A DNA stretch of 64,000 nucleotides from Allobranchiibius sp. CTAmp26 (GTDB lineage Bacteria > Actinomycetota > Actinomycetes > Actinomycetales > Dermatophilaceae), in assembly GCF_017565405.1 (NCBI RefSeq), contig NZ_JAGEKR010000024.1:62001-126000 (forward strand), written 5' to 3'. Shown here one piece after another: positions 8,980 to 58,889 of this stretch. Within the stretch, counting starts at the first letter, position 1. Each line of letters opens with the position of its first letter. The position numbers and the translations under genes are program-made. The notes beneath the pieces were generated by a model. That model had not been told where the DNA came from, made no database searches, and worked only from the letters and a program-made list of their open reading frames with translations.

Positions 8980-9080
8980 TCAGGTGACCGGCCCGCCCGG
9001 TTCGAGGTAGTGCAGGTCCCCGTCCGACGCGGGCGTTTTCTGTCCGTGGCCAGCGCTGCAGCCCTGGCCCAAACGCAGAA

Positions 9081-9114
9081 CGCCCACCCCGCTAGACGTA
9101 CGACGGGGTGGGCG
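9081..9114. terminator. Terminator between convergent transporter genes
   Basis: An 11-bp perfect stem (CGCCCACCCCG / CGGGGTGGGCG) with a 12-nt loop, 31 bp beyond the stop of the APC permease on the minus strand. It probably serves both converging genes. Confidence 0.7.
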
Positions 9115-9145
9115 GCTGCACGAGACGTGTCGCCTCGCCGGCCGG

Positions 9146-10816
9146 TCAGGCCAGCGTGTCCTCCTCGAGGGCGGCCTCGCGCCGAGAGTCGGCGATGTAG
9201 CGGTCGACCGATACGCGGGGCAGCCGGGTCGCGTAGGCCAGCGCCATGATCGCGGCGGAGAAGACGAACGTGACGATGAACGCGCTGCCGAACTGGATGA
9301 CGTTGCGGCCGCCGTCGTAGTTGCCGAGGTAGGACATCAGCGCCAGGCCTCCCAGCCACGGGACGTACCAGAGACCGGACACCCAGTCCCACTCCGGCTG
9401 CTGGCCGCGCGCGGCGTTGACGGCGTACATCACGCCGAGCAGCACGATGCCGAGCACCACGGCCAAGAAGAGCTTCTCGTTGGTCTTCCAACCGGTCCAG
9501 TAGACGATCAGGTTGGCCGACCAGAAGGCGAGGAAGGCGAAGACGTGCGCACCGGGCAGCCGGAACGGACGCGGGTGATCGGGAAGTTGCTTGCGGAACG
9601 CCAGCAGTACCAACGGTCCCGAGCCGAACGACAACACGGTCGCCGAGGTGATGAAGCCTACGAGCTGCTGCCAGCTCGGGAAGGGCAGGAAGAGGATCAG
9701 ACCGACGACGAACGCCAGCACCATGCTGACGAGCGGGACGCCGTTGGACGTCGTCTTCGCCAGCGCCTGAGGGGCGTTGCGGTTGCGGGCCATGGCGAAG
9801 GAGATGCGCGAGGTCACCGTCGTGTAGATCAGACCGGTGTCCGCGGGTGAGACCACCGCGTCGATGTAGAGCAGGGTGGCCAACCAGCCGAGCCCCAGCA
9901 CGCTGGCGATCGCCGCAAGTGGACCGAAGTCGTCGGCGAAGGACACATTCCCCCAGCCGTGCGCGAGATCGGAGGGCGAGAGGGACCCCACGAACGCCAC
10001 CTGCAGCAGCACGTAGATGACGGTGGTCAACAGGACCGACCCGATGACCGCGATGGGCACGTTGCGTTTGGGGTTGTCGGTCTCGCCCGCGAGTTCGATG
10101 CCCTGGCGGAATCCGAGGAAGGAGAAGACGATTCCCGAGGTCGCGATGGCCGTGAAGACACCGTGCCATCCCTGCGGCTTGAAGCCGTGGGAGGTGAAGT
10201 TGTGCGGCGTGAACTTGGTGATCAGGAAGGCTGCGATGACCACTGCGATGATGCCGAGCTTCCACCACACCAGGATGTTGTTGACGCGGGCGAACCAGCG
10301 CACGCCGAAGTAGTTGATGACCACGAAGACGGCCATCGCGATCACGGCCACACCCAGCCCGAGGCCGGTGAGCGTGTGCACGATGGCGCCGTCGACCGTG
10401 TGCTTCTCGGTGAACGGCGCGTACTTGGTCGCGTAGGTGAGGGCGCCCTCCACCTCGATCGGCGCGACGGCCATGCACGCCACCCAGGTGATCCACCCGG
10501 TCATGTAGCTGGCGAACGACCCGAAGCCGATGTGCGGGAACCGGACGACGCCACCGGAGAGGGGGAACATGGTGCCGAGCTCGGCGTAGCAGAGCCCGAT
10601 GAGCAGGATCATCACCCCACCGAGACCCCAGGAGATGACCGCGGCGGGTCCGGCCTGCTGCGCGGCGTTCAGGGCTCCGAAGAGCCAGCCGGAGCCGATG
10701 ATCGATCCGACACTGGCGAAGAGCAGACCGACGACGCCCACATGGCGCTGCAGGTTCGGATCACCCCGATCGTCGGCGTTCGGTGCTGCGTCGGCGAGTT
10801 TGCTGGGGGAGGCCAC
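9146..10816 (-). CDS. APC-family amino acid permease
   Basis: 556 aa. The helix-1 signature GLLFASVGSIIGSGWLFG (residues ~28-45) is the substrate-binding GSG(I/W) motif of the amino acid-polyamine-organocation family. About 12-13 hydrophobic helices follow, with GFRQGIELAGETDNPKRNVP in the middle. It probably imports an amino acid or amine by proton symport; the exact substrate is not deducible. The GTG at 10816 is chosen because GGAAGG lies about 7 nt upstream and the encoded N-terminus is a normal cytoplasmic tail; codons further upstream to 10900 lack a ribosome site. The neighbour tadA is on the same strand, 84 bp upstream. Confidence 0.9.
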   Translation of the reverse strand: MASPSKLADAAPNADDRGDPNLQRHVGVVGLLFASVGSIIGSGWLFGALNAAQQAGPAAVISWGLGGVMILLIGLCYAELGTMFPLSGGVVRFPHIGFGSFASYMTGWITWVACMAVAPIEVEGALTYATKYAPFTEKHTVDGAIVHTLTGLGLGVAVIAMAVFVVINYFGVRWFARVNNILVWWKLGIIAVVIAAFLITKFTPHNFTSHGFKPQGWHGVFTAIATSGIVFSFLGFRQGIELAGETDNPKRNVPIAVIGSVLLTTVIYVLLQVAFVGSLSPSDLAHGWGNVSFADDFGPLAAIASVLGLGWLATLLYIDAVVSPADTGLIYTTVTSRISFAMARNRNAPQALAKTTSNGVPLVSMVLAFVVGLILFLPFPSWQQLVGFITSATVLSFGSGPLVLLAFRKQLPDHPRPFRLPGAHVFAFLAFWSANLIVYWTGWKTNEKLFLAVVLGIVLLGVMYAVNAARGQQPEWDWVSGLWYVPWLGGLALMSYLGNYDGGRNVIQFGSAFIVTFVFSAAIMALAYATRLPRVSVDRYIADSRREAALEEDTLA

Positions 10817-35436: not shown

Positions 35437-39068
<3,632 letters not shown>

Positions 39069-39129: not shown

Positions 39130-39240
39130 TCCGGGGCGGCGGTGCGCGCCCGCGTACCTGACTCACCGGGCGATCACCCGGTTCACAGTGGCGGGACCGT
39201 CCCGGATTCGCACCGGGTTCCGCGAGCGTGTACCGCCCGC
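39130..39240 (-). promoter_or_regulatory. Cobalamin riboswitch of cobN
   Basis: On the minus strand the leader contains GAACCCGGTGCGAATCC, then the B12 box GCCACTGTG (39192-39184), and GAGTCAGGTAC (39164-39154), the defining conserved pieces of the adenosylcobalamin riboswitch. A GC-rich hairpin follows close to the cobN ribosome site AAGGAG, which fits translational control. A -10 box TAGGCT (39246-39241) overlaps the TAG stop of the upstream lipoprotein gene, so the leader can start right where the riboswitch begins. Confidence 0.92.
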
Positions 39241-40510: not shown

Positions 40511-41599
40511 GTGACTTCCCGAGCCCGCCCCGACGGCGGAGACCGCTGCCCGGGTGTGCTGCGCCCGTTCGTCGCGGGCGACGGCGCCCTCGTGCGGCTG
40601 CGCGTACCCGGGGGCCTGATTGGTGTCGACGTGCTCGCCGACCTCGTGGGAATCGCCGCGGAGTACGGCGCACCGGTGCTGCAGCTGACCAGCCGCGGCA
40701 ACCTGCAGCTGCGCGCTCTCCCCGACCCCCTGACCGAGGAGCTGATCGAGCGGATCGAGGCCACCGGACTGCTGCCCAGCGCCTCCCACGAGCGGGTCCG
40801 TAACATCCTCGCCGCGCCGCTGGCCGTATCCCTGCGCCCTCTCGTCGAAGCAGTCGACGCAGCGATCACCAGCGATCCCGCTCTTTCGGAATTGCCGGGG
40901 CGGTTCCTCTTCGCCGTCAGCGACGAGTCCGGTTCCGTCCTCACCGAGGGATGGGACCTGGCCTACCAGGCACTCGAGGACCACGAGGGCGTTCTCCTCG
41001 CGGGCGGTTTCGCGGCCCAGGTCCACCCCGCGGATGCGGTCGCCGAGCTCATCCGCCGCGCACACCTCTTCCTCGACCACCGCGCCGGCGACGACGTCTG
41101 GAACGTCCGCGACCTCCCCACCGACTCCCCGGTCTTCGAGGGCATGCTGCCGTACGGCGCGCGCCTTCCCGGGCCGCTCGAGCCCGGTCCGGCAGGCGCC
41201 GACCTGGTGGTCGGCGTACCCCTGGGGATGCTGCGCCCCGCTCACCTCGACGCGCTCGGCGAGCTCGCCGACGAGGTGGTGCTCACTCCGTGGAAGTCGT
41301 TCGTCGTGCCCGGAGCCGCCGCGGACCCGGGCCGACTGCAGGACGCCGGCCTGGTCACCACCTCCACCTCCCCGTGGTCGCGGATCACCGCCTGCGTGGG
41401 TGCGCCGTACTGCGCCCGCACCCAGACCCACACCCTCGACCTCGCCACCGCCGCGACCGCACAGATGACCGGGGCCGGCCCGCGTATCCACGTCGTCGGG
41501 TGCGAACGCCGTTGCGGCGAGCCGTCATCCGACCACCTCACCCTCGTCGCACCGACCGACGTACACCAGGTCGTTGCCGCCTCTGGAGACCATCGATGA
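40511..41599 (+). CDS. cobG: Precorrin-3B synthase
   Basis: 362 aa. This sulfite/nitrite-reductase-like flavo-free iron-sulfur enzyme uses O2 to hydroxylate precorrin-3A, the step that marks the oxygen-dependent route. Cysteine clusters for the 4Fe-4S centre are ITACVGAPYC (C-terminal half) and VVGCERRCGEPSSDH. Substrate-binding sequence VLQLTSRGNLQLRAL lies near residues 57-72. It is the first gene of a unit with cobH (ATGA overlap) and cobIJ. Confidence 0.93.
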   Translation: MTSRARPDGGDRCPGVLRPFVAGDGALVRLRVPGGLIGVDVLADLVGIAAEYGAPVLQLTSRGNLQLRALPDPLTEELIERIEATGLLPSASHERVRNILAAPLAVSLRPLVEAVDAAITSDPALSELPGRFLFAVSDESGSVLTEGWDLAYQALEDHEGVLLAGGFAAQVHPADAVAELIRRAHLFLDHRAGDDVWNVRDLPTDSPVFEGMLPYGARLPGPLEPGPAGADLVVGVPLGMLRPAHLDALGELADEVVLTPWKSFVVPGAAADPGRLQDAGLVTTSTSPWSRITACVGAPYCARTQTHTLDLATAATAQMTGAGPRIHVVGCERRCGEPSSDHLTLVAPTDVHQVVAASGDHR

Positions 41600-42270
41600 A
41601 TGCCGACCCGCGCCCTCCCACCCGTCGCTACGACTACGTGGCCGACGGCGCCGAGATCTACCGGCGCTCGTTCGGGATGGTCCGCGAGCAGGCCGACCTA
41701 TCCGCCGTCGCCCCTGACCTAAGGGTGGTCGTCACCCGGATCGTGCACGCCTGCGGTGACGTCGAAATCGTACCCGCGGTCGCCGCCTCACACGACGTCG
41801 TCACCGCAACCCGGCACGCATTGCAAGCAGGCGCAACGGTGTTCACCGATTCGGTGATGCTCGCCTCCGGTGTCACCGCGCGCCGGATGCCGGCGCACAA
41901 CGACGTCGTCTGCACGCTGCGGGACGCCCGTGTGCCCAACCTCGCGAAGCAGTGGCGCACCACCCGCGCTGCCGCTGCGGTCTCCCTCTGGGACGAGCGC
42001 CTCGACGGGGCGGTCGTCGCGATCGGCAACGCCCCCACGGCCCTCTTCCACCTGCTGGAGGTCGTGATGGACGGCGGACCGCGGCCGGCGGCGATCGTCG
42101 GAATGCCGGTCGGGTTCATCGGCTCGGCCGAGTCCAAGGTCGCCCTGGCCGAGCACGTGCTCCCCGATGGCGGGCAGATCCCCTGGATCACCGTGCACGG
42201 TCACCGCGGCGGGTCCGCGATGGCATCGGCCGCCGTGAACGCACTTGCCACGGAGTCCGAACTGGCATGA
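41596..42270 (+). CDS. cobH: Precorrin-8X methylmutase
   Basis: 224 aa. It moves the C-11 methyl to C-12, giving hydrogenobyrinate. The catalytic His lies in TRIVHACGDVE. The AGATVFTDSVMLASGV and VVAIGNAPTALFHLLE blocks and the C-terminal GHRGGSAMASAAVNAL are characteristic. Overlaps both neighbours by 4 bp (ATGA at each junction). Confidence 0.95.
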   Translation: MNADPRPPTRRYDYVADGAEIYRRSFGMVREQADLSAVAPDLRVVVTRIVHACGDVEIVPAVAASHDVVTATRHALQAGATVFTDSVMLASGVTARRMPAHNDVVCTLRDARVPNLAKQWRTTRAAAAVSLWDERLDGAVVAIGNAPTALFHLLEVVMDGGPRPAAIVGMPVGFIGSAESKVALAEHVLPDGGQIPWITVHGHRGGSAMASAAVNALATESELA

Positions 42271-43799
42271 GCAGCAACGACATCGGGCACCTGTACGGCG
42301 TGGGGCTCGGCCCCGGCGATCCCGACCTGATCACGCTGAAGGCGGCTCGGCTGATCGAGTCCGCCGACGTCATCGCCTATCACGCGGGCACCGGCAAGTC
42401 CTCGATCGCACGGGCCATCGCCGCCGACCTGATCCCGGTGGGCGTGCATGAGGAGGAGCTGCGCTACCCCGTGACGACCGGTGCGGTCGAGCACCCTGCC
42501 GGCTATCACGGCTGGCTCGCGGAGTTCTACGACGAGTGCGCAGCGCGGTTGCGCGCGCACCTCGAGGCCGGTCGCACGGTCGTCGTTCTGGCAGAAGGCG
42601 ATCCGATGTTCTACGGGTCGTTCATGTACCTGCACGACCGCCTCGCCGACAGCTTCCCCACAGAGGTCGTCCCCGGAGTGACCGCGGTCTCTGGCGCGAC
42701 CGCCGTCGCCGCGCACGCCCTGGCCCGACACGAGGACGTGCTCACGGTTCTGTCCGGCACACTCCCCGTCGCCGAGCTCGCGCGCCGCCTCGCCGACACC
42801 GACGCCGCCGTCGTGATGAAGCTGGGTCGCACCTTCGCCAACGTGCGCGAGGCACTGCGACAGGCCGGCCTGCTCGACCGCGCCGTCTACGTCGAGCGCG
42901 CCACCCGCGACGGCCAACGCGTGCTGCCCGCGACAGACGTCGACCCGGCGACCGTCCCCTATATGTCGATCGTCATCGTGCCGGGTCAGGACCGTCGGGC
43001 GGACGCCGCAGGACGCGCGTCCGTGGAGCCGGTGCAGCCGGTTCGTGCGTCGATCACCGGCACCGTGCACGTCGTCGGCCTCGGTCCAGGGCCGGACCGT
43101 TGGCTCACCCCGGAGGCGACTGCGATCCTGGCCGAGGTCGACCACGTCGTGGGGTACGCGCCGTACGTCGAGCGGGTGCCCCAGCGCGTCGGACTCACCC
43201 GGCATGCGAGCGGCAACACGGTCGAGGTCGACCGGGCGCGCGACGCGTTGGACCTGGCGGCTGCGGGTGACGACGTTGCTGTCGTATCCGGTGGCGACGC
43301 AGGGGTTTTCGGCATGGCCGCCGCTGTATTCGAAGCGGCGGAGACGGCCGGCGCGGCGTACGCCGAGGTGCCGGTGCACGTCGTCCCCGGGCTCACCGCG
43401 GCCCAGGCCGCCGCGGCGCTCGTCGGCGCTCCGCTCGGCGCGGACTTCGCGGTGATCAGTCTCTCGGACCGTCTGAAGCCGTGGTCGATGCTGGAGGAGC
43501 GTCTCCGCGCGGCGGCCGCCGCCGACCTCGTGATCGCGCTCTACAACCCCCGCTCGCGGTCCCGACCCGACCAGCTGCACGCCGCACGCGCGGCGCTGCT
43601 CGACGTGAAGTCGGCCGACACCGTGGTCGTTATCGCGCGCGACGTGGGCCGGGCTCAGGAGTCGGCCGTCGTGACCACGCTGGGCGCGTTCGACCCCGAC
43701 ACCGTCGACATGAAGTGCCTGGTGATCATCGGGGCGTCCTCCACCCGCGTGACCCTGGGCGGACAGGTGTGGACGCCGCGCTCCGTCGAGCGGCCGTAA
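42267..43799 (+). CDS. cobIJ: CobI-CobJ fusion methyltransferase
   Basis: 510 aa. Residues ~1-245 are CobI, precorrin-2 C20-methyltransferase (LYGVGLGPGDPDLITLKA, VVVLAEGDPMFYGSF, VVPGVTAVSGATAVAA). Residues ~265-510 are CobJ, precorrin-3B C17-methyltransferase, which contracts the ring (VHVVGLGPGPDRWLTPEA, VAVVSGGDAGVFGMAA, VIALYNPRSRSRPDQL). CobI-J fusions are known in actinobacteria. Last gene of the cobG-cobH-cobIJ unit; an inverted repeat follows 3 bp after the stop. Confidence 0.95.
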   Translation: MSSNDIGHLYGVGLGPGDPDLITLKAARLIESADVIAYHAGTGKSSIARAIAADLIPVGVHEEELRYPVTTGAVEHPAGYHGWLAEFYDECAARLRAHLEAGRTVVVLAEGDPMFYGSFMYLHDRLADSFPTEVVPGVTAVSGATAVAAHALARHEDVLTVLSGTLPVAELARRLADTDAAVVMKLGRTFANVREALRQAGLLDRAVYVERATRDGQRVLPATDVDPATVPYMSIVIVPGQDRRADAAGRASVEPVQPVRASITGTVHVVGLGPGPDRWLTPEATAILAEVDHVVGYAPYVERVPQRVGLTRHASGNTVEVDRARDALDLAAAGDDVAVVSGGDAGVFGMAAAVFEAAETAGAAYAEVPVHVVPGLTAAQAAAALVGAPLGADFAVISLSDRLKPWSMLEERLRAAAAADLVIALYNPRSRSRPDQLHAARAALLDVKSADTVVVIARDVGRAQESAVVTTLGAFDPDTVDMKCLVIIGASSTRVTLGGQVWTPRSVERP

Positions 43800-45389: not shown

Positions 45390-48113
45390 CTAGCCGGTCA
45401 GGCCGCCTACTTGGACCGGGACGGCGGCCTGGCCACCCTCCGTTCCATCACCCAACTCGCCGAGAGTGCGGTCACCCCAGCACGAGACCCCGCGATTGCG
45501 TAGCGCGCAGAATGCCTCGAAGCCGGGCTCCAATGCGGTGACCCCGGACGTCAGACCCGAAACCTGCCGCGGAGAGCTCGCCTGCACTTCGGTCCCCCCG
45601 TCCCCCAGCGCCTTGTAGGTGTTGTCGCCCCAACACAACGCACGGCCGGCACGTACCGCGCAGATCGCTGCGGTGGTAGCCGTCATCTGGGTCACCCCCG
45701 AGGTGAGACCGACGACCTGGACCGGCACATTCGAAAGGCCGCCGCTGCGGCCATCCCCCAACTGCCCGAAGGTGTTGTCTCCCCAGCAGAGGGCCGAACC
45801 CGCCCGTACGGCGCATGTCCCGTCGAAACCGTCGTACACACTGGTCACTCCGGAGGTCAGCCCGGCGACTTGAACGGGCACGTTCGAGTGACCACCAGTG
45901 TGCGCGTTGCCCAACTGGCCGTCGGAATCATCACCCCAGCACTTCAAGTCTCCGGCCGCCAGGATCGCGCAGAAGCCGGCACGCGCGCTGATGACCTGGA
46001 CGACACCAGAGGACATACCGACCACGTGAGTCGGCACTCCGGACTCGTCGACCGCTGTGCCATCTCCCAGCTCGCCCTCGCGGTTATGGCCCCAACACCT
46101 GGCGCCACCACTTACGACCGCACACATGCTTCTGAAGCCACCCGCCAGCTGAACCACACCCGAAGACAGACCCTCGACCGGCACAGGAACCGACGAATAT
46201 CCGCCGACGACACCGTTGCCCAGTTCGCCGCCGCCGTTGTCACCCCAGCACATGACGCCACCCCCGCTCAGCACTGCGCACATCCCGGTCGTCTCCGGCA
46301 CCAGATGCGCCACCGCCGAGGTCAGCCCCGTGACCTGGACCGGACGGTTCGACTCCCTCTCGCTGCCACCATCGCCAAGCTGACCGAGCCAGTTGTTGCC
46401 CCAGCACCACACGGTCCCGTCCGTACGCACAGCACAGGATCCATCCGCGGTATTCGCCAGTTCCGTCACCCCGGAGGTCAATCCCACCACCTGCACCGGT
46501 CGACTCCCGGTCGCCTCGGTTCCGCCGTCGCCCAATTGGCCGTAGGTGTTGTCGCCCCAGCACTGGACATCTCCACCCGTCAGGATCCCGCACATCCCCG
46601 CGTTGGTCCGGACCAAGCTCGTCACACTGTGAGAGTCGGGAACCGCGATCGGCAGGGTCCGGCCGATGCTGTGACCGACCTGGTCGGTGACACTGGCGGT
46701 GATCGTGGCGAAGGCGCTGGCCGTCGGCGTCCCGCTCACCGTGCCCGAACGACTGTCCAGCAGGAGTCCCGCCGGCAGTCCCGACACGGCCCAGGTGTAC
46801 GGGGGCTTGCCACCGCTCGCGGTCAAGGTCGCGTTGTACGGCGTCCCGACGAAACCGGACGGCATGCTGCTGGTCGTGACGCTCAGAGGAGGGACCGGTA
46901 CGGGCCCGGTCGTGACGTACCCGACCAGGTCGACGATCACATCGGCTGCTGTCGAGACTCCCACCTCGAGGTGACCATTCGCGCCGAGCGCGACGGTGGC
47001 CGAGTTCGCGACCGTTGCTGCCGAGCCGAAGTTCAGCGTCGAGGTGCCGGGCGACGGTGCCCCGCCCGCGAACACGGTCGCCCACCCCGCATGGGCTGCC
47101 CTGGTCACGGTGACACTGACTTCGACGGCGCGCACCCCCGTGATGGGGACACCGCGCAGACCCGCGATCGGCACGTCCAGCGCAGTGGCCGCCGACACCT
47201 TCCCGCTGGTCCCGCCGGTCCCGTCCCTGGTGTCGGCAACACGCACCGGCGTGATCGCCGTGTAGTCGCTCGTGGTGGGGATCCAGCCCACGACGTCCAC
47301 AAGCAGGTCGACCGCCGAAGCGGAGTAGATGTCGACCGCACCCGTGGCACCCACCTTGACGATGCCCATTCCGGCGGTGGTCTGCCCCGGGACGTAGTCC
47401 ACGACCGACGTGGGTGGACGGGTGACACCGGCGGGGAAGAGCGTCAACCAACCGGCACTCGCACGGGGAATAGCCGTGACGTTGAGGACGACCGCGCCCA
47501 CGCCCGTCGCCGGAACCCCTCCACGACCGGTCACGGTGACCTGCGTTGTCGAATCGCCACTCGGATGGGACGAGGCGTGGCGCGTGTCGAGCAGTCGGGA
47601 AGGCTGCAGCGGGTCGTACGCCGCGCCGGTCGGGTAGTAGCCGCTGACGTCCACGAACAGTTGCGTACCGGCGGAGGAGAAGAGGTCCACGATCCCGCCG
47701 GCACCCACCTTCACGATGACCTGGTTGGCGACGGTCTCGTGCGTCACGAAGTTGACGTTGGACGTCGTCGGCCGCGGTGCGGCCGCCGGCCATAAGGTCG
47801 CGAACCCGCTTCGGGTGGGTTCGGCGACCGTCACGTTCAACACCACCGCCGATACCCCTGCGGACGGCACGCCGCCACGGCCCAGAACCTGCACCGACGT
47901 CGTCGACGCCGCACGCACCGGACCCCTGGCGACCCCCTGCCCGTCACGGCTGTCCAGCAGCCGCGCTGGGGACAGCGGTGTGTAGTCGGGCTCGGTGGGT
48001 ACGCCGGTCGCGGCTGTTCGCGGAGGCGCTGCGCGGGCCACCGCAGGGTCGACCCCCGTCAAGGTGGCGACCATCGCCACCACCACGAACAGGACACCCA
48101 GAATCCGCTGCAT
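45390..48113 (-). CDS. Secreted RCC1-repeat protein with three N-terminal surface repeats
   Basis: 907 aa. An N-terminal signal peptide (about residues 1-28) is followed by three repeats of ~125 residues, each beginning with a PxRLLDSR-, RLLDTR- or RVADTR-type motif and containing VSAVVLNVTV- and LFVDVSGYYP-type strands. A putative Ig-like domain follows (PSGFVGTPYNATLTASGGKPPYTW, about 408-480). Eight RCC1-type repeats of ~50 residues form a probable beta-propeller, each with CWGDNxxGQLGDG. Expected location is the cell surface or outside; a role in adhesion or polymer binding is only a guess. No LPXTG or membrane anchor is seen at the C-terminus. An alternative GTG start is one codon upstream. 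Confidence 0.87.
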   Translation of the reverse strand: MQRILGVLFVVVAMVATLTGVDPAVARAAPPRTAATGVPTEPDYTPLSPARLLDSRDGQGVARGPVRAASTTSVQVLGRGGVPSAGVSAVVLNVTVAEPTRSGFATLWPAAAPRPTTSNVNFVTHETVANQVIVKVGAGGIVDLFSSAGTQLFVDVSGYYPTGAAYDPLQPSRLLDTRHASSHPSGDSTTQVTVTGRGGVPATGVGAVVLNVTAIPRASAGWLTLFPAGVTRPPTSVVDYVPGQTTAGMGIVKVGATGAVDIYSASAVDLLVDVVGWIPTTSDYTAITPVRVADTRDGTGGTSGKVSAATALDVPIAGLRGVPITGVRAVEVSVTVTRAAHAGWATVFAGGAPSPGTSTLNFGSAATVANSATVALGANGHLEVGVSTAADVIVDLVGYVTTGPVPVPPLSVTTSSMPSGFVGTPYNATLTASGGKPPYTWAVSGLPAGLLLDSRSGTVSGTPTASAFATITASVTDQVGHSIGRTLPIAVPDSHSVTSLVRTNAGMCGILTGGDVQCWGDNTYGQLGDGGTEATGSRPVQVVGLTSGVTELANTADGSCAVRTDGTVWCWGNNWLGQLGDGGSERESNRPVQVTGLTSAVAHLVPETTGMCAVLSGGGVMCWGDNGGGELGNGVVGGYSSVPVPVEGLSSGVVQLAGGFRSMCAVVSGGARCWGHNREGELGDGTAVDESGVPTHVVGMSSGVVQVISARAGFCAILAAGDLKCWGDDSDGQLGNAHTGGHSNVPVQVAGLTSGVTSVYDGFDGTCAVRAGSALCWGDNTFGQLGDGRSGGLSNVPVQVVGLTSGVTQMTATTAAICAVRAGRALCWGDNTYKALGDGGTEVQASSPRQVSGLTSGVTALEPGFEAFCALRNRGVSCWGDRTLGELGDGTEGGQAAVPVQVGGLTG

Positions 48114-48282
48114 CACAGTCGACCGTTCCCCCAGGGCGCGCCCTGGCCGATGTGTCAGACCCGTGGCGAACCGACTCCGCCGCGTCCTGCGGCGCGAAAA
48201 AATACCACGCCGTACGGCGCGTTGGGCGCGGATCGAGGACCCCGGTTCGGCCAGTGAGTGAGGACGCTCTGCGGCCGGGTTC

Positions 48283-50258: not shown

Positions 50259-50287
50259 GGCGAGGGCGCCGATATGACATGATCGCT

Positions 50288-50387
50288 GCGACGCAGGGCG
50301 AGGAATCCGGTGCGAATCCGGAGCGGTCCCGCCACTGTGAGTTGCCGGAGTCCCTCCGGTACGAGCCAGGATGTCGGCCTGCGTCAC
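50288..50387 (+). promoter_or_regulatory. Cobalamin riboswitch of the chlID-cobO-cbiB operon
   Basis: The plus strand carries GGAATCCGGTGCGAATCCGG, then the B12 box GCCACTGTGA (50331-50340) and GAGCCAGGATGTCGG. The closing P1 stem pairs ACGCAGG (50291-50297) with CCTGCGT (50378-50384). A -10-like CATGAT lies at 50278-50283, so transcription may begin just before P1. About 64 bp separate P1 from the GTG at 50451. Confidence 0.93.
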
Positions 50388-50450
50388 GCTCGGTCGGCGA
50401 CCCGATCGGGCCACTCGACCGGCGAGCGTGGTCACTCGTCAGAAGGGCCC

Positions 50451-52544
50451 GTGGATTCCGTGCCGCAGTTCCCGTTCTCCGCCATCGTCGGTGCCGACGA
50501 GATGGCCCTCGCACTCGTCCTGACGACCGTCGCCCCCGATGTCGGCGGGGTGCTCGTCCGCGGCGAGAAGGGCACCGCGAAGTCCACCATGGTGCGCTCC
50601 CTTGCGGCGGTGCTGCCCGAGCAGGACGTCGTCGACGGATGCCGCTTCGGTTGTGATCCGCGCGAACCCGACCCGCAGTGCCCCGACGGCCCGCACACGC
50701 CCGGGATGGACGCCGCGCAGCGGCCCGCCCGGCTGGTCGAGCTTCCCATCGGCGCCAGCGACGACCGGGTCACCGGATCGCTCGATCTCAGCCGCGCGCT
50801 CGGATCCGGCGAGACGGCGTTCGAGCCCGGCCTGCTCGCCGATGCCCACCGCGGCCTCCTCTACGTCGACGAGGTCAACCTGCTGCAGGACCACCTCGTC
50901 GACCTGCTGCTCGACGCGGCCGCGATGGGCCGCAACACCGTCGAGCGCGACGGTGTCTCGGTCACTCACGCGGCGCGGATCATGCTCGTCGGCACGATGA
51001 ACCCCGAAGAAGGCGAGCTGCGCCCGCAGCTGCTCGACCGCTTCGGGCTGTCCGTCGAGATCAGCGCGTCCCGCGTCCCGCAGGAGCGGGTGGAGATCGT
51101 CCGCCGGCGGCTCGCGTTCGACGCCGACCCCGAGGGTTTCGCCACGACGTACGCCGACGCGCAGGCCACGCTCGGCGCGCGGTTGGCCGCCGCCCAGCAG
51201 CGTGTGGCGGACGTGGAGCTGTCGGACTGGGCGCTGGGCAAGATCGCGACCGTCTGTGCCGGATTCGACGTCGACGGGATGCGCGCGGACATCGTGACCG
51301 CCCGCGCCGCCCGGGCGCACGCGGCGTGGCAGGACCGCGACAGCGTCGCCCGCGAGGACATCCGGGTGGCCGCGAAGCTCGCTCTGCCGCACCGCCGTCG
51401 GCGCAAGCCGTTCGACGCGCCGGGCCTGGACGAAGACCTGCTCGACCGTCTGCTCGGCGACGACGACGAGCCGGACCCCACGCCGGACGAGACTGAGACG
51501 AATGACGACCCGGATCCTACGCAGCCGCAGCCTGATTCGCCGGCCGATGGGAACGAGACCGAGGGCGACGACGCAGAGTCCAACAACCAGTCACCCTCAG
51601 AGGGCGGCGACGCCACGGAGGATCCGAACGACGCCACCACGCCGACCCCGCACCGGGACGGCGGCGAGGCCGAGCGCTCCGAGCAGGAGCGGGAGACCGA
51701 CACGGCGGCCCCCGAGGCGCCGACCGCGCCCCTGCAGGTCGCGCAAGCCGAGGAGCCCTACCGGGTGCGGTCATTCACCGTCCGAGGTGTCGGCCGTGGC
51801 GAGGCCGGGCGGCGCAGCCGGGCGATCACCAACTGGGGCGCGACCATCGGCTCCGCTCGCACCGGCACCGGCGCGGTGCACCTGCCCGCCACGATCCGGG
51901 CAGCCGCGCTGCGCGGCGCGGGCCGGTCGCGTGCCGGTCGACTGCGCGTCGCCGGTGAGGATCTGCGCCACAAGGTGACCCAGGGCCGCGAGTCCAACCT
52001 CGTCCTCATCGCCGTCGACGCCTCCGGTTCGATGGGCGCGCGCGAACGGATGAGCGAGGTCAAGACCGCCGTCATCAGCCTGCTGACCGACGCCTACCAG
52101 CGCCGTGACCGGGTCGGGGTGGTGACCTTCCGAGGCGCGGGGGCCGATCTCGCGCTCCCGCCGACGCACTCCGTCGAGGCCGCCGCGGCCTGCCTGACCG
52201 ACCTGCCGCACGGCGGCCGTACGCCGCTCGCCGAGGGACTGCTCACCGCCGCCCGCACCCTCGAGGTCGAGCGCATCCGCGACCCGCACCGGCGGGTGCT
52301 GCTCGTGCTGGTGACCGACGGCCGGGCCACCTCCGGCCCGGACGCCCTCGAGCGCGCCCGCTGGGTCGCCGATCGGTGGCCGAGCACCGGAGTGGATGCC
52401 GTGGTGGTCGACGCCGAGACCGGCCGCTTCCGGATGGGCTTGGCCGCCGACCTCGCCGCGCGGATGGGCGCCGAGCACGTGACGCTGGCAGAATTCGCCG
52501 CCGACAGCCTGGTGACGGCGATCCGCGAGAGGAGTGTGGCCTGA
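50451..52544 (+). CDS. ChlI-ChlD fusion, probable cobaltochelatase ATPase subunit
   Basis: 697 aa. Residues ~8-330 are an AAA+ ATPase of the magnesium-chelatase I type, with Walker A GEKGTAKST (38-46) and Walker B LLYVDEVNLL. An acidic, disordered linker (~333-423) leads to a von Willebrand A domain with the MIDAS motif DASGSMG (from 523). In actinobacteria such single chains are thought to power CobN in place of CobS and CobT; the B12 riboswitch and position before cobO support this. The GTG at 50451 has AGAAGGG upstream. Its stop overlaps cobO (TGATG). Confidence 0.9.
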   Translation: MDSVPQFPFSAIVGADEMALALVLTTVAPDVGGVLVRGEKGTAKSTMVRSLAAVLPEQDVVDGCRFGCDPREPDPQCPDGPHTPGMDAAQRPARLVELPIGASDDRVTGSLDLSRALGSGETAFEPGLLADAHRGLLYVDEVNLLQDHLVDLLLDAAAMGRNTVERDGVSVTHAARIMLVGTMNPEEGELRPQLLDRFGLSVEISASRVPQERVEIVRRRLAFDADPEGFATTYADAQATLGARLAAAQQRVADVELSDWALGKIATVCAGFDVDGMRADIVTARAARAHAAWQDRDSVAREDIRVAAKLALPHRRRRKPFDAPGLDEDLLDRLLGDDDEPDPTPDETETNDDPDPTQPQPDSPADGNETEGDDAESNNQSPSEGGDATEDPNDATTPTPHRDGGEAERSEQERETDTAAPEAPTAPLQVAQAEEPYRVRSFTVRGVGRGEAGRRSRAITNWGATIGSARTGTGAVHLPATIRAAALRGAGRSRAGRLRVAGEDLRHKVTQGRESNLVLIAVDASGSMGARERMSEVKTAVISLLTDAYQRRDRVGVVTFRGAGADLALPPTHSVEAAAACLTDLPHGGRTPLAEGLLTAARTLEVERIRDPHRRVLLVLVTDGRATSGPDALERARWVADRWPSTGVDAVVVDAETGRFRMGLAADLAARMGAEHVTLAEFAADSLVTAIRERSVA

Positions 52545-53158
52545 TGCCCCGAGGACAGACCCCCGTCGCCGCGGCGGACGGACTCACCACCCGCGCCCGG
52601 CGCAACTCCCCACTCGTCGTCGTGCACGGCGGCGACGGCAAGGGCAAGTCCACGGCCGCGTTCGGGCTCGCGCTGCGCGGCTGGAACCAGGGCTGGTCGA
52701 TCGGTGTCTTCCAGTTCGTGAAGTCCGCCAAGTGGCGCATCGGCGAGCAGACCGCCCTCGAGACGCTCGACCGGGTGCACCAGGACACCGGCCAGGGCGG
52801 TCCCATCGAGTGGCACAAGATGGGCTCGGGCTGGTCCTGGTCGCGCAAGGCGGGCAGCGAGCAGGAGCACGCCGACGCGGCACGCGAGGGGTGGGCGGAG
52901 ATCAAGCGGCGCCTCGCCGCGCAGACCCACACGCTCTACATCCTCGACGAGTTCACCTACCTCATGAAGTGGGGCTGGGTCGACGTGGACGACGTCGTGA
53001 CCACCCTGCGGGACCGGCCCGGCCACCAGCACGTCGTGATCACCGGGCGCAATCCGGACCCCCGCCTGTTGGAGATCGCCGACGTCGCGACCGAGATGAC
53101 CAAGATCGCGCACCCCTTCGACAAGGGCCAGAAGGGCCAGAAGGGCATCGAGTGGTGA
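52544..53158 (+). CDS. cobO: Cob(I)alamin adenosyltransferase
   Basis: 204 aa. It transfers the adenosyl group of ATP to cobalt(I). The P-loop is GGDGKGKST (residues 29-37), with FQFVKSAKWRIGE and LYILDEFTYLMKWGW downstream, as in the CobA/CobO/BtuR family. Overlaps chlID (TGATG) and cobB (GTGA). Confidence 0.95.
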   Translation: MPRGQTPVAAADGLTTRARRNSPLVVVHGGDGKGKSTAAFGLALRGWNQGWSIGVFQFVKSAKWRIGEQTALETLDRVHQDTGQGGPIEWHKMGSGWSWSRKAGSEQEHADAAREGWAEIKRRLAAQTHTLYILDEFTYLMKWGWVDVDDVVTTLRDRPGHQHVVITGRNPDPRLLEIADVATEMTKIAHPFDKGQKGQKGIEW

Positions 53159-55647
53159 CCCGGCTGCCCCGCGTCGTGATCGCCGCCGCGGCGTCGGGCC
53201 AGGGCAAGACCACCGTGGCCGTCGGCATCATGGCCGCCCTGCGCAGCCGCGGGCTCGCGGTCGCCCCCGCCAAGGTCGGCCCCGACTACATCGACCCCGG
53301 CTACCACGCGCTCGCGACCGGACGGCCGGGCCGCAACCTCGACCCGTGGCTGACCGCGCCCGAGCAGATCGCGCCGCTGCTGCTGCACGGTGCGCGCACG
53401 CCGTACGCCGCGGACCTGTCGGTGATCGAGGGCGTGATGGGCCTGTACGACGGGCAGATGGGCACCGACGGATTCGCCTCGACCGCCCATGTCGCGACGC
53501 TGACCCACTCACCGGTGCTGCTGGTCATCGACATCTCCTCGGCGGCCCGCACGATCGCCGCCAGCGTGCATGGCCTCGCCAGCTACGACCCGTCCGTGCA
53601 GGTCGCCGGCGTCGTGCTCAACAAGGCCGGCAGCGCCCGGCACGCCACGGAAGTACGCCGCGCCGTCGAGGCCACCGGCCTGCCCGTCCTCGGTGTCCTG
53701 CCCCGCGACGCCGGCGTCAGCGTGCCGTCCCGCCACCTCGGTCTGGTCCCCGCCGCCGAGCGCGACGAGGCCGCGGCCGGGCTCGACCGACTCGCCGGCC
53801 AGATCACCGAGCACCTCGATCTCGACGCCGTCCTCGAGCTGGCGCGGACCGCGCCGGACCTGCACGAGGAGCCCTGGGCCCCACCGACCGTGCACCGTGC
53901 CGCACCCGCTCGCGTTGTCGCGGTCGCCGGTGGGCAGGCCTTCACCTTCCGGTACACCGAGACCGACGAGATACTGCGCGCCGCAGGGTGCGAGCCGGTC
54001 GTCTTCGACCCGGCGTCGGACCCCGCCCTGCCGGCCGGCACCAGTGGCCTCTACCTGGGCGGCGGTTTCCCGGAGGCACACGCCCCGGCGCTGGCCCGGA
54101 ACGCGTCCCTGCTCGCCGAGCTGCGCGACGCCGTCGCCTCCGGCATGCCGACCGTCGCGGAGTGCGCCGGCCTGCTCTACCTGGCGCAGGCACTCGACGA
54201 CCACGCGATGGTGGGCGCGCTGCCCGCTGCCGCGGCGATGCACCCGCGGCTGACCCTGGGCTACCGCACCGCGACTCTTCCGGTCGACGGGGTCCTCGGC
54301 GTTGCCGGCACGACGGTGCACGCCCACGAGTTCCACCGCACCCGCACGACTCCCGCCACGTCGGGGCCCGGCGCCTGGCTGGTCGACGGTGCACCGGCCG
54401 GGTTCGCGCTCGACCCGGCCGGCACCGGGCGCCCCACCGTCCACGCGTCGTACCTGCACGTGCACTGGGCCGGAAACCCCTCTTTGGCAACGTCGTTCGC
54501 CGACGCGGTGCACACGTACCAGCCCGCGATGGAGGCGGTACGCCCTCCGGTGACCCCTTCGCCGGTGGCTGCGTACCCCGCGGCCACGGCCGGGCCCACC
54601 GACCCGCTCGACCACCACGGCGACGCCGAGCTCCGTGGCACCGGACGCACCCTCGTCGACCTCGCCGTCAACGTGCGGGTCCCTGTCCCGCCGGTGTGGC
54701 TCACCGACCGCATCGCCGCCTGCACGACCCGGTTGGCCGCGTATCCCGATGTCTCGCAGGCTCGTACGGCGATCGCCGAGCGACACGGCGTCCCCGAGGC
54801 GATGGTGCTGCCGACCAGCGGCGCCGCCGAGGCCTTCACCCTGATCGCGCGCGCCGTGCCCGGGCGGCACCCCCTCGTGGTGCACCCGCAGTTCACCGAG
54901 CCCGAGGCGGCGCTGCGCCGCGTCGGACGGGTGCCCGAGCGGCATGTGCTGCACGCCGACGCCGGCTTCGTGCTCGACGCCGCCCGTGTCGACCCGAACG
55001 CCGACCTGGTCATGCTCGGCAATCCCACCAACCCGACCGGCGTGCTGCACCCGCACGCCCCCATCGAGTCCCTGTTGGGCCCCGGTCGCACGGTCGTCGT
55101 CGATGAAGCGTTCATGGATGCCGTTCCTGGAGAGCCGAACTCGCTGATCGGCGCGCAGATGCCCGGACTGTTGGTGCTGCGCTCGCTGACCAAGACGTGG
55201 GGACTAGCCGGACTGCGCGCCGGGTACGTCGTCGGCGACCCCGACCTGATCGCGCTCCTGGCGCACCACCAGCCGCCGTGGTCGGTGTCGACGCCCGCGG
55301 CCGTCGTGATGACCGCGACCGCGACCCGCAGCGCGCTCGATCAGGCCGACGGACTGGCCCGGCAGGCGACCACCGACCGGGCACATCTCGTCCGTGGCCT
55401 GCGGGCGTGCGGGCTGCGGCCGGTCGATGGAGTCGCGCCGTTCGTCCTGGTCCAGGCGCCTCCGAATACTCGGGAAGCACTGCGGGACAACGGGTTCGCC
55501 GTACGTCGCGGCGACACCTTCCCCGGACTGGACGCACGGTGGATCCGCATCGCGGTGCGCGACACGACGACGACCGATGCCTTCCTGGTCGCCCTGGACG
55601 ATGTGCTCGCCCGCATCCCTTCGACCGCACCCGAGCTCGCCCGATGA
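53155..55647 (+). CDS. cobB: CobB fused to a CobC/CobD-type PLP enzyme
   Basis: 830 aa. Residues ~1-450 are CobB, hydrogenobyrinate a,c-diamide synthase: P-loop ASGQGKTT (13-20), KVGPDYIDPGYH and the glutaminase segment VAECAGLLYLAQ with Cys337. Residues ~465-830 are an aminotransferase-fold enzyme like CobC/CobD, with VLPTSGAAEAF, GNPTNPTG and the PLP lysine 680 in SLTKTWGLAG. In Salmonella CobD makes (R)-1-amino-2-propanol phosphate from threonine phosphate. One chain thus carries two steps that are not consecutive. GTGA overlap with cobO, ATGA with cobA. Confidence 0.92.
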   Translation: MTRLPRVVIAAAASGQGKTTVAVGIMAALRSRGLAVAPAKVGPDYIDPGYHALATGRPGRNLDPWLTAPEQIAPLLLHGARTPYAADLSVIEGVMGLYDGQMGTDGFASTAHVATLTHSPVLLVIDISSAARTIAASVHGLASYDPSVQVAGVVLNKAGSARHATEVRRAVEATGLPVLGVLPRDAGVSVPSRHLGLVPAAERDEAAAGLDRLAGQITEHLDLDAVLELARTAPDLHEEPWAPPTVHRAAPARVVAVAGGQAFTFRYTETDEILRAAGCEPVVFDPASDPALPAGTSGLYLGGGFPEAHAPALARNASLLAELRDAVASGMPTVAECAGLLYLAQALDDHAMVGALPAAAAMHPRLTLGYRTATLPVDGVLGVAGTTVHAHEFHRTRTTPATSGPGAWLVDGAPAGFALDPAGTGRPTVHASYLHVHWAGNPSLATSFADAVHTYQPAMEAVRPPVTPSPVAAYPAATAGPTDPLDHHGDAELRGTGRTLVDLAVNVRVPVPPVWLTDRIAACTTRLAAYPDVSQARTAIAERHGVPEAMVLPTSGAAEAFTLIARAVPGRHPLVVHPQFTEPEAALRRVGRVPERHVLHADAGFVLDAARVDPNADLVMLGNPTNPTGVLHPHAPIESLLGPGRTVVVDEAFMDAVPGEPNSLIGAQMPGLLVLRSLTKTWGLAGLRAGYVVGDPDLIALLAHHQPPWSVSTPAAVVMTATATRSALDQADGLARQATTDRAHLVRGLRACGLRPVDGVAPFVLVQAPPNTREALRDNGFAVRRGDTFPGLDARWIRIAVRDTTTTDAFLVALDDVLARIPSTAPELAR

Positions 55648-56642
55648 GGCTCGACATCCCCGGCACGGGCGCCCGCGTGCTGGTGCGTGACCCCGGGCCG
55701 CGCGTCGCTGAGATCGTGCACACCCTGCTCGACGGCGGGGCCGTGGTCGATGTGCAGGAGTCCGGAACGCACCCGGTGGTGCGAGACCTGGCCACACGCC
55801 GGCTCGTCACGGTCGTTGCCGCGCCCGATCTCGCCTCGTACGACGTCGTGCTGCGCGACCCGGCGGTCGAGGCGCAGGAGCCTTCCCGGTCCGGAAGCAG
55901 CGGACGGGTCGTGCTGGTCGGCGGAGGTCCAGGCGACCGCGGCCTGCTGACCATCGCCGGGATGCAGGCACTGCGCGAGGCAGACGTGGTGGTCTGCGAC
56001 AGGTTGGCTCCGCTCGGCGTGCTCGACGAATTGGACCCGCGTCCGGAGATCATCCACGTCGGCAAGATCCCTTCGGGTGCCTTCACGCCCCAGGAGCAGA
56101 TCAACGCCATCCTCGTCGAGCAGGCACAAGCTGGACGGAACGTCGTGCGGTTCAAGGGTGGCGACAGTTTCGTCTTCGGCCGCGGCGGCGAGGAATGGAA
56201 CGCGTGCGTCGACGCGGGCGTAGCAGTCACTGTGATTCCCGGTGTCACTTCGTCTATCGCCGCGCCCGCACTCGCCGGGATTCCCCTCACGCACCGCGAC
56301 GTCATCCAGGGCTTCGTCGTCGTCTCCGGACACGTCGCCCCCGACGACCCGCGCAGCACCGTGGACTGGCGCGCCGTCGCGGAGACGCGGATGACGGTGG
56401 TCGTCCTCATGGGGGTCAAGACCCTCGCGAGCATCGCGGATGCGCTCATCTCCCACGGCCTCGACCCCGAGACGCCGGCAGCGTCGGTGGCCGACGCGGG
56501 CCTGCCGAGTCAGCGGGTCGCTCGGGGGCCACTGCGCGACATCGCGCGGATCGGCGACCAGGCGGACATCCGACCGCCCGCCGTCACAGTGATCGGGCAC
56601 TCCGTCGCCGCACTGCGCCCACAGGACATCGGCACGTCGTGA
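55644..56642 (+). CDS. cobA: Uroporphyrinogen-III C-methyltransferase
   Basis: 332 aa. Residues ~90-332 are the SAM methylase that makes precorrin-2: VLVGGGPGDRGLLTIAGMQAL, HVGKIPSGAFTPQEQIN, VVRFKGGDSFVFGRGGEE, VIPGVTSSIAAPALAGIPLTHR. The first ~85 residues resemble a shortened CysG-type dehydrogenase domain without a complete GxGxxA NAD motif, so no precorrin-2 oxidation is expected from it. Overlaps both neighbours by 4 bp. Confidence 0.94.
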   Translation: MRLDIPGTGARVLVRDPGPRVAEIVHTLLDGGAVVDVQESGTHPVVRDLATRRLVTVVAAPDLASYDVVLRDPAVEAQEPSRSGSSGRVVLVGGGPGDRGLLTIAGMQALREADVVVCDRLAPLGVLDELDPRPEIIHVGKIPSGAFTPQEQINAILVEQAQAGRNVVRFKGGDSFVFGRGGEEWNACVDAGVAVTVIPGVTSSIAAPALAGIPLTHRDVIQGFVVVSGHVAPDDPRSTVDWRAVAETRMTVVVLMGVKTLASIADALISHGLDPETPAASVADAGLPSQRVARGPLRDIARIGDQADIRPPAVTVIGHSVAALRPQDIGTS

Positions 56643-57415
56643 GGCAGTTGCTGACCGGCCTGCGCCTTGCCGTCGGCACCCTGTCCATCGTTCCCGTGGG
56701 CACGCTCCCCGAGGTGGACCGCACCAGTGCGCGGTGGGCGATGACTCTGGCACCCGTGGGCGCGCTGCCCGTCGCCTTGCTCGGCGGGCTGCTCGCCTGG
56801 GCCGGCCCCACGGTCCACCTGCCCTCGCTGGTGACCGGCGTCCTGGTGTGTGCGGCACTCGGCTGGGGCACCCGCGCCATGCACTGGGACGGCTTGGCGG
56901 ACACCGCAGACGGCCTCGCCGCGGGTTGGAGTCGCGAACGCGCCCTGGAGGTCATGCGCAAGGGCGACACCGGCCCTGTCGCGGTCGGGGTGCTCGTGGT
57001 GGTCCTGCTGCTCGACGCCGCATCCCTGGCCGCCGTGGTCACGGACGCATGGGGCTGGCTGCTCGTCGGCGTGGCCGTGCTCGCGTCCCGGGCCGCCTGC
57101 ACCCTGATCGCCGTACGCGGTCTTCCGGCCGCCCGCTCCGACGGCCTCGGGGTCGTCGTCGCCGATAACGTGCCGGTCCCCGCCCTCGCCTCGACGGTGC
57201 TGGTGGTGCTGGCCCTCTCCGCGGCGGTCGGGTTCGTCGCCGGCCACGTCCTCCTCACGCCGGTCGCGGTGGCCCTCGGGCTCGTGGCGGTGTCCGTGCT
57301 CGCGATCCGCTGCCGCACGGTGCTGGGCGGGGTGACCGGTGACGTGATGGGCGCCGGCGTCGAGATCGCCCTGGCGGTCAGCCTGCTCGTCCTGTCCACT
57401 CGGGGTGGCGCGTGA
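56639..57415 (+). CDS. cobS: Adenosylcobinamide-GDP ribazoletransferase
   Basis: 258 aa integral membrane enzyme (CobS/CobV). The conserved HWDGLADTADGL segment and RKGDTGPVAVGVL follow; about six hydrophobic helices are visible. It joins alpha-ribazole to adenosylcobinamide-GDP to give adenosylcobalamin at the membrane. Coupled to cobA (GTGA) and cobU (GTGA). Confidence 0.94.
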   Translation: MRQLLTGLRLAVGTLSIVPVGTLPEVDRTSARWAMTLAPVGALPVALLGGLLAWAGPTVHLPSLVTGVLVCAALGWGTRAMHWDGLADTADGLAAGWSRERALEVMRKGDTGPVAVGVLVVVLLLDAASLAAVVTDAWGWLLVGVAVLASRAACTLIAVRGLPAARSDGLGVVVADNVPVPALASTVLVVLALSAAVGFVAGHVLLTPVAVALGLVAVSVLAIRCRTVLGGVTGDVMGAGVEIALAVSLLVLSTRGGA

Positions 57416-57945
57416 AGACCCTGGTCCTCGGCGGCATCCGCTCGGGCAAGTCCGCGGTCGCCGAGCGCACGCTGGCGGACGCGCCGGCGGTCTCGTACGT
57501 CGCGACGGGTCCCGGCCCCGATCTGGACGATGACTGGGCGCGCCGCGTGCATACCCACCGCGAACGCCGCCCCGCGCACTGGTCGACCATTGAGTCGATC
57601 GACCTCGCAGGCGTATTGGCGGACCTGCCCGGTCCGGCTCTCGTCGACGGACTCGGCACCTGGATCACCGCCCACCTGGACCGGCTACGGGCCTGGGAAG
57701 CCCCGCGCGAGGACTGGGAACCCGCCGCGCTGGAGCTGGTCGACGACCTGGCGACAACGGTCCGCGGCTGCCGGCACGACCTGGTGATCGTGTCGGACGA
57801 GGTCGGCCTCAGTCTCGTGCCCGAGCATCGCTCGGCCCGCATCTTCGCCGACCTGCTCGGGCTCACCAACCAACGCGTCGCCGATGCCTGCGACACCGTG
57901 CAGCTCGTCGTCGCAGGGCAGGTGCTCACGGTGAAGTCGCCGTGA
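57412..57945 (+). CDS. cobU: Adenosylcobinamide kinase/guanylyltransferase
   Basis: 177 aa. The P-loop LGGIRSGKS is at the N-terminus (residues ~6-14), with YVATGPG and HRERRP carrying the guanylylated His region, and LVIVSDEVGLSLVPEHRSAR near residue 125. It phosphorylates adenosylcobinamide and adds GMP. GTGA overlaps at both ends. Confidence 0.95.
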   Translation: MKTLVLGGIRSGKSAVAERTLADAPAVSYVATGPGPDLDDDWARRVHTHRERRPAHWSTIESIDLAGVLADLPGPALVDGLGTWITAHLDRLRAWEAPREDWEPAALELVDDLATTVRGCRHDLVIVSDEVGLSLVPEHRSARIFADLLGLTNQRVADACDTVQLVVAGQVLTVKSP

Positions 57946-58889
57946 GACCCGACCCCATCGTCGCCGGGCTGCTCGTCGGGTACGCCGCCGATCTGGTCCT
58001 CGGCGATCCACGCCGGTGGCACCCAGTGGCCGGTTTCGGCACCCTGGCCACCGCCCTGGAGCGGCGCACGTACGCCCCTCGTCGCACCCGCGGCATCCTG
58101 CACGAGGCCCTCCTGGTCGGCGGGGTGACCGTGGCCGGCGGGTATGCCGCCCGCATGCGTCCCCACCTGCCGGTCGTCGCGCTCGCCACCTGGACCGTGC
58201 TCGGCGGCCGCTCGCTGACGCGGGAGGCATCCGCGATGCACGACCTGCTCGTACGCGAGGACCTCGCGGGCGCCAGAGTGCAGATCCGGCACCTCGTGGG
58301 ACGGGACAGTTCGCAGCTGACCCCCGCCGAGCTGGCACGCGCCTGCGTCGAGTCGGTCGCCGAGAACGGTGCGGACGCCGTGGTCAGCCCGCTCTTCTGG
58401 GGCGCGATCGCCGGGGTGCCCGGGCTGGTCGGCTACCGCGCAGTCAACACCCTCGACGCGATGATCGGGCACCGTTCCCAGCGCTACCGCGAATTCGGCT
58501 GGGCCGCAGCACGACTGGACGACGTCGCGAACTGGGCCCCGGCGCGCCTCACCGTGCTGTCGATCGCCCTCGCCACCGGATCACCCGCCCGGGCACGCCA
58601 GGTGGTGCACGTCGTACGCCGGGACGCCCCCGCACACCCGAGCCCGAACGCCGGCCCGGTCGAGTCGGCGTTCGCCGCGGCACTCGGGCGCCGGCTGGGA
58701 GGCCGCAGCACCTACCGCGGTGTGCCCGAGGATCGGGGCACGCTCGGCGACGGCCCGGACGTGGGGGTCGACGACATCGGCGCCGCGATCCGGCTGCACC
58801 ACCGCACAGCCACGATCGCCCTGGCCCTCGTCGTCGGAGCCCGAGTGGTCAGCCGGGCAGCAGCGCGAGGCATCCGTCGACGGAGCTGA
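57942..58889 (+). CDS. cbiB: Adenosylcobinamide-phosphate synthase (CbiB/CobD)
   Basis: 315 aa membrane protein. It attaches aminopropanol (or its phosphate) to adenosylcobyrate. Markers: DLVLGDPRRWHPV, the RACVESVAENGADAVVSPLFW block and GPVESAFAAALGRRLGG. It is the last gene of the eight-cistron riboswitch operon chlID-cobO-cobB-cobA-cobS-cobU-cbiB (with the fusions counted as one gene each the unit has seven reading frames). Its 3' end overlaps cobK by 41 bp on the opposite strand. Confidence 0.94.
   Translation: MRPDPIVAGLLVGYAADLVLGDPRRWHPVAGFGTLATALERRTYAPRRTRGILHEALLVGGVTVAGGYAARMRPHLPVVALATWTVLGGRSLTREASAMHDLLVREDLAGARVQIRHLVGRDSSQLTPAELARACVESVAENGADAVVSPLFWGAIAGVPGLVGYRAVNTLDAMIGHRSQRYREFGWAAARLDDVANWAPARLTVLSIALATGSPARARQVVHVVRRDAPAHPSPNAGPVESAFAAALGRRLGGRSTYRGVPEDRGTLGDGPDVGVDDIGAAIRLHHRTATIALALVVGARVVSRAAARGIRRRS

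Follow-up and report, generated by a model that had tools for sequence, protein, structure and literature searches.

A Fused CobB–CobC Gene in a Cobalamin Operon of Allobranchiibius and the Probable Role of Its CobC Half

In Allobranchiibius sp. CTAmp26 a single gene, cobBC, very probably encodes a bifunctional vitamin B12 protein that arose by in-frame fusion of two neighboring, translationally coupled operon genes and whose halves work independently on a flexible linker. The gene lies in the 64,000-nucleotide stretch analyzed here (the window), and its position and neighborhood are given in Table 1. In the scheme we propose, the CobB half would use glutamine and ATP to amidate hydrogenobyrinic acid at its a and c side chains, and the CobC half would form aminopropanol phosphate by decarboxylating L-threonine-O-3-phosphate. 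CbiB, whose gene belongs to the same operon, would then join this product to cobyric acid. The two halves would fold independently on either side of the linker, and the main effect of the fusion would be their co-production in a 1:1 ratio, without any hand-over of substrate.

Table 1. The fused gene and surrounding cobalamin features, in window coordinates
Feature	Coordinates	Strand	Evidence
CobN	35451–38948	-	
AdoCbl riboswitch, before cobN	39140–39235	-	
Cobalamin riboswitch, operon head	50278–50396	+	RF00174, 40.8 bits (gathering 31.5)
ChlI/ChlD-type cobaltochelatase subunit	50469–52544	+	TIGR02442, 760 bits, just below cut-off 779
cobO, corrinoid adenosyltransferase (domain part)	52610–53158	+	PF02572, 193 bits; 4-nt overlap with cobBC
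cobBC, fused CobB–CobC	53155–55647	+	ORF, 830 aa; NCBIfam NF053748, 1206.6 bits
CobB half: (hydrogeno)byrinic acid a,c-diamide synthase, residues ~1–455	53155–54519	+	NF002204, CbiA, GATase_3
Disordered linker, residues 459–490	54529–54624	+	pLDDT, codon-position GC
CobC half, CobD-type, probable L-threonine-O-3-phosphate decarboxylase, residues 485–830	54607–55644	+	NF005915, TIGR01140, 1lc5, Foldseek, residues
Uroporphyrinogen-III C-methyltransferase (SUMT)	55644–56642	+	TIGR01469, 267 bits; ATG overlaps cobBC stop by 4 nt
cobS	56639–57415	+	PF02654, 118 bits
cobU	57412–57945	+	PF02283, 159 bits
cbiB, expected consumer of aminopropanol phosphate	57942–58889	+	TIGR00380, 184 bits (cut-off 166)

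The cobBC frame runs from a GTG at 53155 to a TGA at 55645–55647 with no internal stop and reads as 830 amino acids. Three Pfam domains follow one another in the product, CbiA (PF01656, residues 7–195), GATase_3 (PF07685, residues 255–441) and Aminotran_1_2 (residues 522–811), the first two above their cut-offs, and the CobB half scores 491 bits against NF002204 (cut-off 254). The whole protein passes the NCBIfam model NF053748, "bifunc_CobBC" (release 20.0; cut-off 950 bits), scoring 1206.6 bits over positions 1–796 of 797. The original prediction of a CobB fused to a CobC/CobD-type PLP enzyme is thereby confirmed, and the fusion is real, common in relatives and already catalogued. Since the model is matched over this span and the same in-frame fusion is found in 37 of the 84 other rows of our homolog set (described below), sequence comparison leads us to exclude chance. 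The catalytic residues that had been named are also in place: a P-loop (SGQGKT, residues 14–19) and the amidotransferase nucleophile Cys337 in the CobB half, and the PLP lysine, Lys680, in the CobC half. G17, K18, T19, C337, H435, H437 and K680 are each invariant (85/85 homologous rows). The N-terminal half therefore has what marks a CobB, a CbiA P-loop together with a GATase_3 domain carrying a cysteine nucleophile and conserved histidine. With this half, phmmer returned no PDB match at E 0.001, and no CobB-type structure was among the 50 Foldseek matches listed.

It had been proposed to look for the same fusion in other genomes, and it was found there. Searching with the two halves separately, we classified the best 80 of 585 confirmed stretches, so that the counts describe the nearest relatives only: 34 loci are fused in one frame, 8 are adjacent and unfused, and 38 have the two genes apart. 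Our 85-row set consists of these 80 loci, the window, three further fused loci (L007–L009) and one further adjacent locus (L010), giving 38 fused, 9 adjacent and 38 apart; L011–L013, with no CobC match in the fetched stretch, were excluded, and L001, which duplicates the window, was not counted again. One locus counted as adjacent, L054, comes from a metagenome-assembled genome and has a broken CobC frame rather than a clean unfused arrangement. Fused loci among the best 80 include those of Knoellia, Aeromicrobium, Nocardioides, Mumia, Rhodococcus, Nocardiopsis, Microbispora, Acidipropionibacterium, Cutibacterium avidum, Austwickia and two Streptomyces (S. fragilis and S. smaragdinus). The 38 apart loci belong to Streptomyces and relatives, with 0.5–4.5 kb between cobB and cobC; in L056 this gap holds a Zip-like frame on the opposite strand and a CbiG_C domain.

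We also examined the distribution of the fusion at the level of whole genomes. In an evenly drawn sample of 396 genomes of the phylum, our own included, seven pass the NF053748 cut-off, four as one continuous match and three (G107, G352 and G023) only with their neighbors in frame; the latter were left out of the count of CobB–CobC fusions. None of the 14 control genomes passes. Within the family of the window the cut-off is passed by 48 of 149 genomes, 40 with one match and 8 with neighbors in frame, which were likewise left out as CobB–CobC fusions. The other 101 family genomes comprise 36 whose matches stay under the cut-off, 32 of these with CobB and CobC matched separately, and 65 with no match at E 1e-60. 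In a 99% complete genome of the same genus as the window (G473) neither CobB nor CobC gave a match at E 1e-60, and the B12 pathway may have been lost within this genus. Among open-licence PMC papers we found none that names a CobB–CobC fusion in its title or the opening of its abstract; an excerpt of PMC8123684 mentions bluB/cobT fusions.

The adjacent loci suggest how the fusion may have come about. In 7 of the 9, cobC has a candidate in-frame start whose overlap with the cobB stop is exactly 4 nt; L048 has a second cobC start candidate directly after the cobB stop, the overlap in L050 is 8 nt, and L054 is the broken frame mentioned above. The order cobO, cobB, cobC in one direction is kept in 35 of the 37 fused loci (window not counted), in all 9 adjacent loci and in all 38 apart loci. 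In a quick phylogeny of the two halves (85 rows), five changes of the fused label are needed, and well-supported branches force at least four of these, although the count is blind to gain versus loss. None of 500 label shuffles gave as low a number. The neighbors of the window on this tree are Knoellia, a Micrococcales metagenome bin and G307, a placement that is unsure in its finer detail owing to several long branches. The tree thus indicates that the fused or unfused state has changed repeatedly. Because a 4-nt overlap of cobB and cobC is possible in 7 of the 9 adjacent loci, we infer that in the simplest origin a coupled stop/start junction would have been lost, or the reverse, several times. 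The fused clades are large, so some benefit of the fusion is possible.

Does the fused gene give one protein or two? We scanned each locus, between 75 nt before the CobC half and 15 nt into it, for in-frame start codons that are preceded by a Shine-Dalgarno-like motif at 4–11 nt. Such starts occur in 6 of the 9 adjacent unfused loci and in 9 of the 38 apart loci, compared with only 2 of the 38 fused loci, the window not being one of the two. The window does have two in-frame start codons near the beginning of its CobC half, as would be needed if a separate CobC were made and the fused frame were incidental, but neither has the motif. The hidden internal start that had been named as a possible refutation thus finds little support. 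A leaderless or weak internal start, or proteolysis, is possible; that a separate CobC is in fact made by a hidden start or by proteolysis we consider very unlikely. The linker itself has a coding-like composition, with codon-position GC of 0.79/0.68/0.86 in the window (residues 459–486) and 0.80/0.69/0.83 over all fused loci, a weak trend in that the third position is highest in 24 of 38.

CobC may have a second fusion partner. In L056 one frame (8122–9726) contains both Pfam domains, with CbiG_C/CobE upstream of cobC. Among the 38 apart loci, CbiG_C/CobE and cobC share a stop-free frame in 23, share a frame with stops in 3, and do not share one in 12; L056 and the 22 other stop-free loci are Streptomyces and Kitasatospora. 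The two domains lie within 260 nt of each other in 29 loci, of which 26 are frame-sharing (3 of these with stops). Third-position GC across the join is 0.83, versus 0.61 and 0.63. A possible start codon lies between the domains in 19 of the 23 stop-free loci, in 2 with a Shine-Dalgarno-like motif, and for this reason the second CobC fusion is probable rather than established; these loci are, besides, related among themselves. In L056, no model for this domain pair was among those listed by the NCBIfam scan. Since CobC would then have two different, non-consecutive partners, it seems that whichever gene adjoins it can become fused.

These observations bear on whether the two enzymes need to be joined. 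The original prediction suggested that the fusion may tether enzymes in a complex, and in its strongest form this would make the fusion an obligate scaffold, holding CobB and CobC together as part of a larger B12 assembly alongside CbiB and others. The fused state is common to large clades, and in many Streptomyces CbiG_C/CobE and CobC occupy one frame, both of which could be read in this way. However, among the best 80 loci, taken from 585 confirmed stretches, there are the 8 adjacent unfused ones (the broken L054 included) and the 38 apart, same-family relatives have the two genes split, and the distance between the aligned halves in fused loci varies from 30 to 384 nt. An AlphaFold2 model built on 37 of the 38 fused sequences (alignment A1, which omits L051 and its longer linker, a locus kept in all other counts) has a mean pLDDT of 88.3 and a pTM of 0.59. 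It shows two confident domains on a disordered tether, pLDDT being below 50 for residues 459–490, and the position of the halves relative to each other is not confident, a single-chain result that is compatible with an oligomeric assembly. The tethering idea is therefore unsupported, and we give an obligate scaffold a very low probability. The remark that the CobB and CobC steps are not consecutive in the pathway was right; because of this, and because the domains have no confident arrangement, we dropped a channelling model. Ordinary fusion of adjoining operon genes accounts for the data.

The genomic setting is that of B12 synthesis. After the riboswitch the operon continues, on one strand, with the chelatase subunit, cobO, cobBC, SUMT, cobS, cobU and cbiB. 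CobN is present and there is no match to CbiD, consistent with the aerobic route, in which the CobB half would act on hydrogenobyrinic acid. A CobG-like protein of the nitrite/sulfite reductase type is encoded at 40511–41599 (+); its 168 bits fall short of the CobG cut-off (235), as do the 184 bits of a second match elsewhere in the genome (G000:C9). None of the four GHMP-kinase genes found in the genome is of the PduX threonine kinase type; they are GalK-, HddA- (heptose-phosphate kinase, below the model cut-off), IspE- and ThrB-like. The low CobG-like scores and the lack of a PduX-type gene among these four weigh against the proposed scheme. Elsewhere in the window, one frame (41952–43799, +) joins the methyltransferase domains of CobI and CobJ, and a gene amid the cob genes (45390–48116, -) encodes a 908-amino-acid protein carrying RCC1-type repeats together with a putative Ig domain.

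What does the CobC half do? NCBIfam names both NF053748 and NF005915, which the CobC half passes with 443 bits (cut-off 360, residues 485–814), histidinol phosphate aminotransferase, after M. tuberculosis Rv2231c, for which such activity is reported in an excerpt of PMC11065945. However, the CobC half scores only 120 bits against the HisC model TIGR01141 (cut-off 276.55), compared with 236 bits against the CobD model TIGR01140. The latter is also below its cut-off of 290.55, and we therefore base the CobD-like reading on the scores taken together with residues, context and the structural match. A HisC of its own is encoded in this genome between hisD and hisB, with 533 bits to NF002877 (cut-off 409), 297 to the HisC model and 162 to the CobD model. 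In the PDB the best sequence match of the CobC half is Salmonella CobD (1lc5, 108 bits), followed by 9jfb (CobC, 69 bits) and 3fkd (deposited as threonine-phosphate decarboxylase, 68 bits). Two of the five best matches, 3p1t (putative, 68 bits) and 3ftb (65 bits), are deposited as HisC and lie near 9jfb and 3fkd in score; 1fg3, also HisC, has 61 bits. Foldseek ranks 1–4 are all CobD structures.

The residues point away from HisC. In the CobC rows F653 and W709 are invariant (85/85 each), H488 is found in 84 of the 84 rows with a letter there and R802 in 82 of 83, whereas the two HisC-type proteins of the genome have Y and Y, Y and F, M and A, and G and A, respectively, at F653, W709, H488 and R802. 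The DEAY tyrosine of HisC, present in both of these proteins and in 4r8d, 9t0w, 3cq5 and 3cq4, is thus replaced in every CobC row by F653. Salmonella 1lc5 has DEAF, PWSV, PGLD and a final R (VAIR), with S where the window protein has R785; 9jfb keeps DEAF and PWAV and lacks PGLD and the counterpart of R802; 3fkd has PWAV, but DQSY in place of DEAF. Letters of the 1lc5 type are present in the CobC half, at positions chosen in this analysis, from which 3fkd and 9jfb deviate and one of which, DEAF, is shared by 3ftb, a deposited HisC. Because of these deviations, that in 1lc5 included, and because of 3ftb, the residues separate the CobC half from HisC better than they define CobD.

In view of the CobD-like scores, the structure match, the residues, the riboswitch-headed B12 operon and the separate HisC, the CobC half is most likely a threonine-phosphate decarboxylase and not a histidinol phosphate aminotransferase. 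As far as its excerpt goes, a 2026 census of PLP enzymes in M. tuberculosis doubts the aminotransferase role of Rv2231c, whose activity is 2–3 orders below that of HisC (PMC12910592). We regard an aminotransferase role of the fused half as highly unlikely.

The significance of the fusion lies mostly in annotation. That a CobB fusion partner, a cobalamin riboswitch and a proper HisC are found in one genome is good evidence for a role in B12 synthesis of the family named "Rv2231c family histidinol phosphate aminotransferase CobC", which is likely misnamed. If so, automatic annotation would spread a doubtful function across many genomes of actinobacteria, and threonine-phosphate decarboxylase may be scored as missing in pathway surveys; according to an excerpt of PMC6461909, cobD and pduX annotations are absent from most genomes of verified producers. 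A bolder view would hold both that CobC is a promiscuous fusion partner across Actinomycetota (with CobB in many lineages and CbiG_C/CobE in many Streptomyces), marking an unrecognized physical assembly of late B12 enzymes, and that the aminotransferase label is wrong for the whole family; taken together, this seems unlikely to us.

Several known systems invite comparison. The CobC half finds its best sequence and fold match in Salmonella CobD (1lc5, 1lc7, 1lc8, 1lkc), with which it has DEAF, SLTK, PWSV, PGLD and the R of VAIR in common, although that enzyme stands alone and is 28% identical in the Foldseek alignment. Rhodobacter capsulatus CobC, likened here by description rather than by alignment, has the same proposed activity and place in the pathway; an excerpt of PMC6249242 presents it as a demonstrated threonine-phosphate decarboxylase, but a stand-alone one that works with the kinase BluE. 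M. tuberculosis Rv2231c (CobC) is the namesake of NF005915 and is likened through that family model, not by alignment; it differs in being reported as a histidinol phosphate aminotransferase. The CobC of MSMEG_4305 is presumably the phosphatase of the Salmonella naming and not a PLP enzyme. MSMEG_4305 itself, an RNase H–CobC fusion in the excerpt of PMC7466739, is likewise called a CobC fusion. The closest counterpart is the NF053748 architecture, which is like the window protein in domain order, in both halves and over its full length; structurally we see no difference, and it is the aminotransferase role in the name of the model that we doubt.
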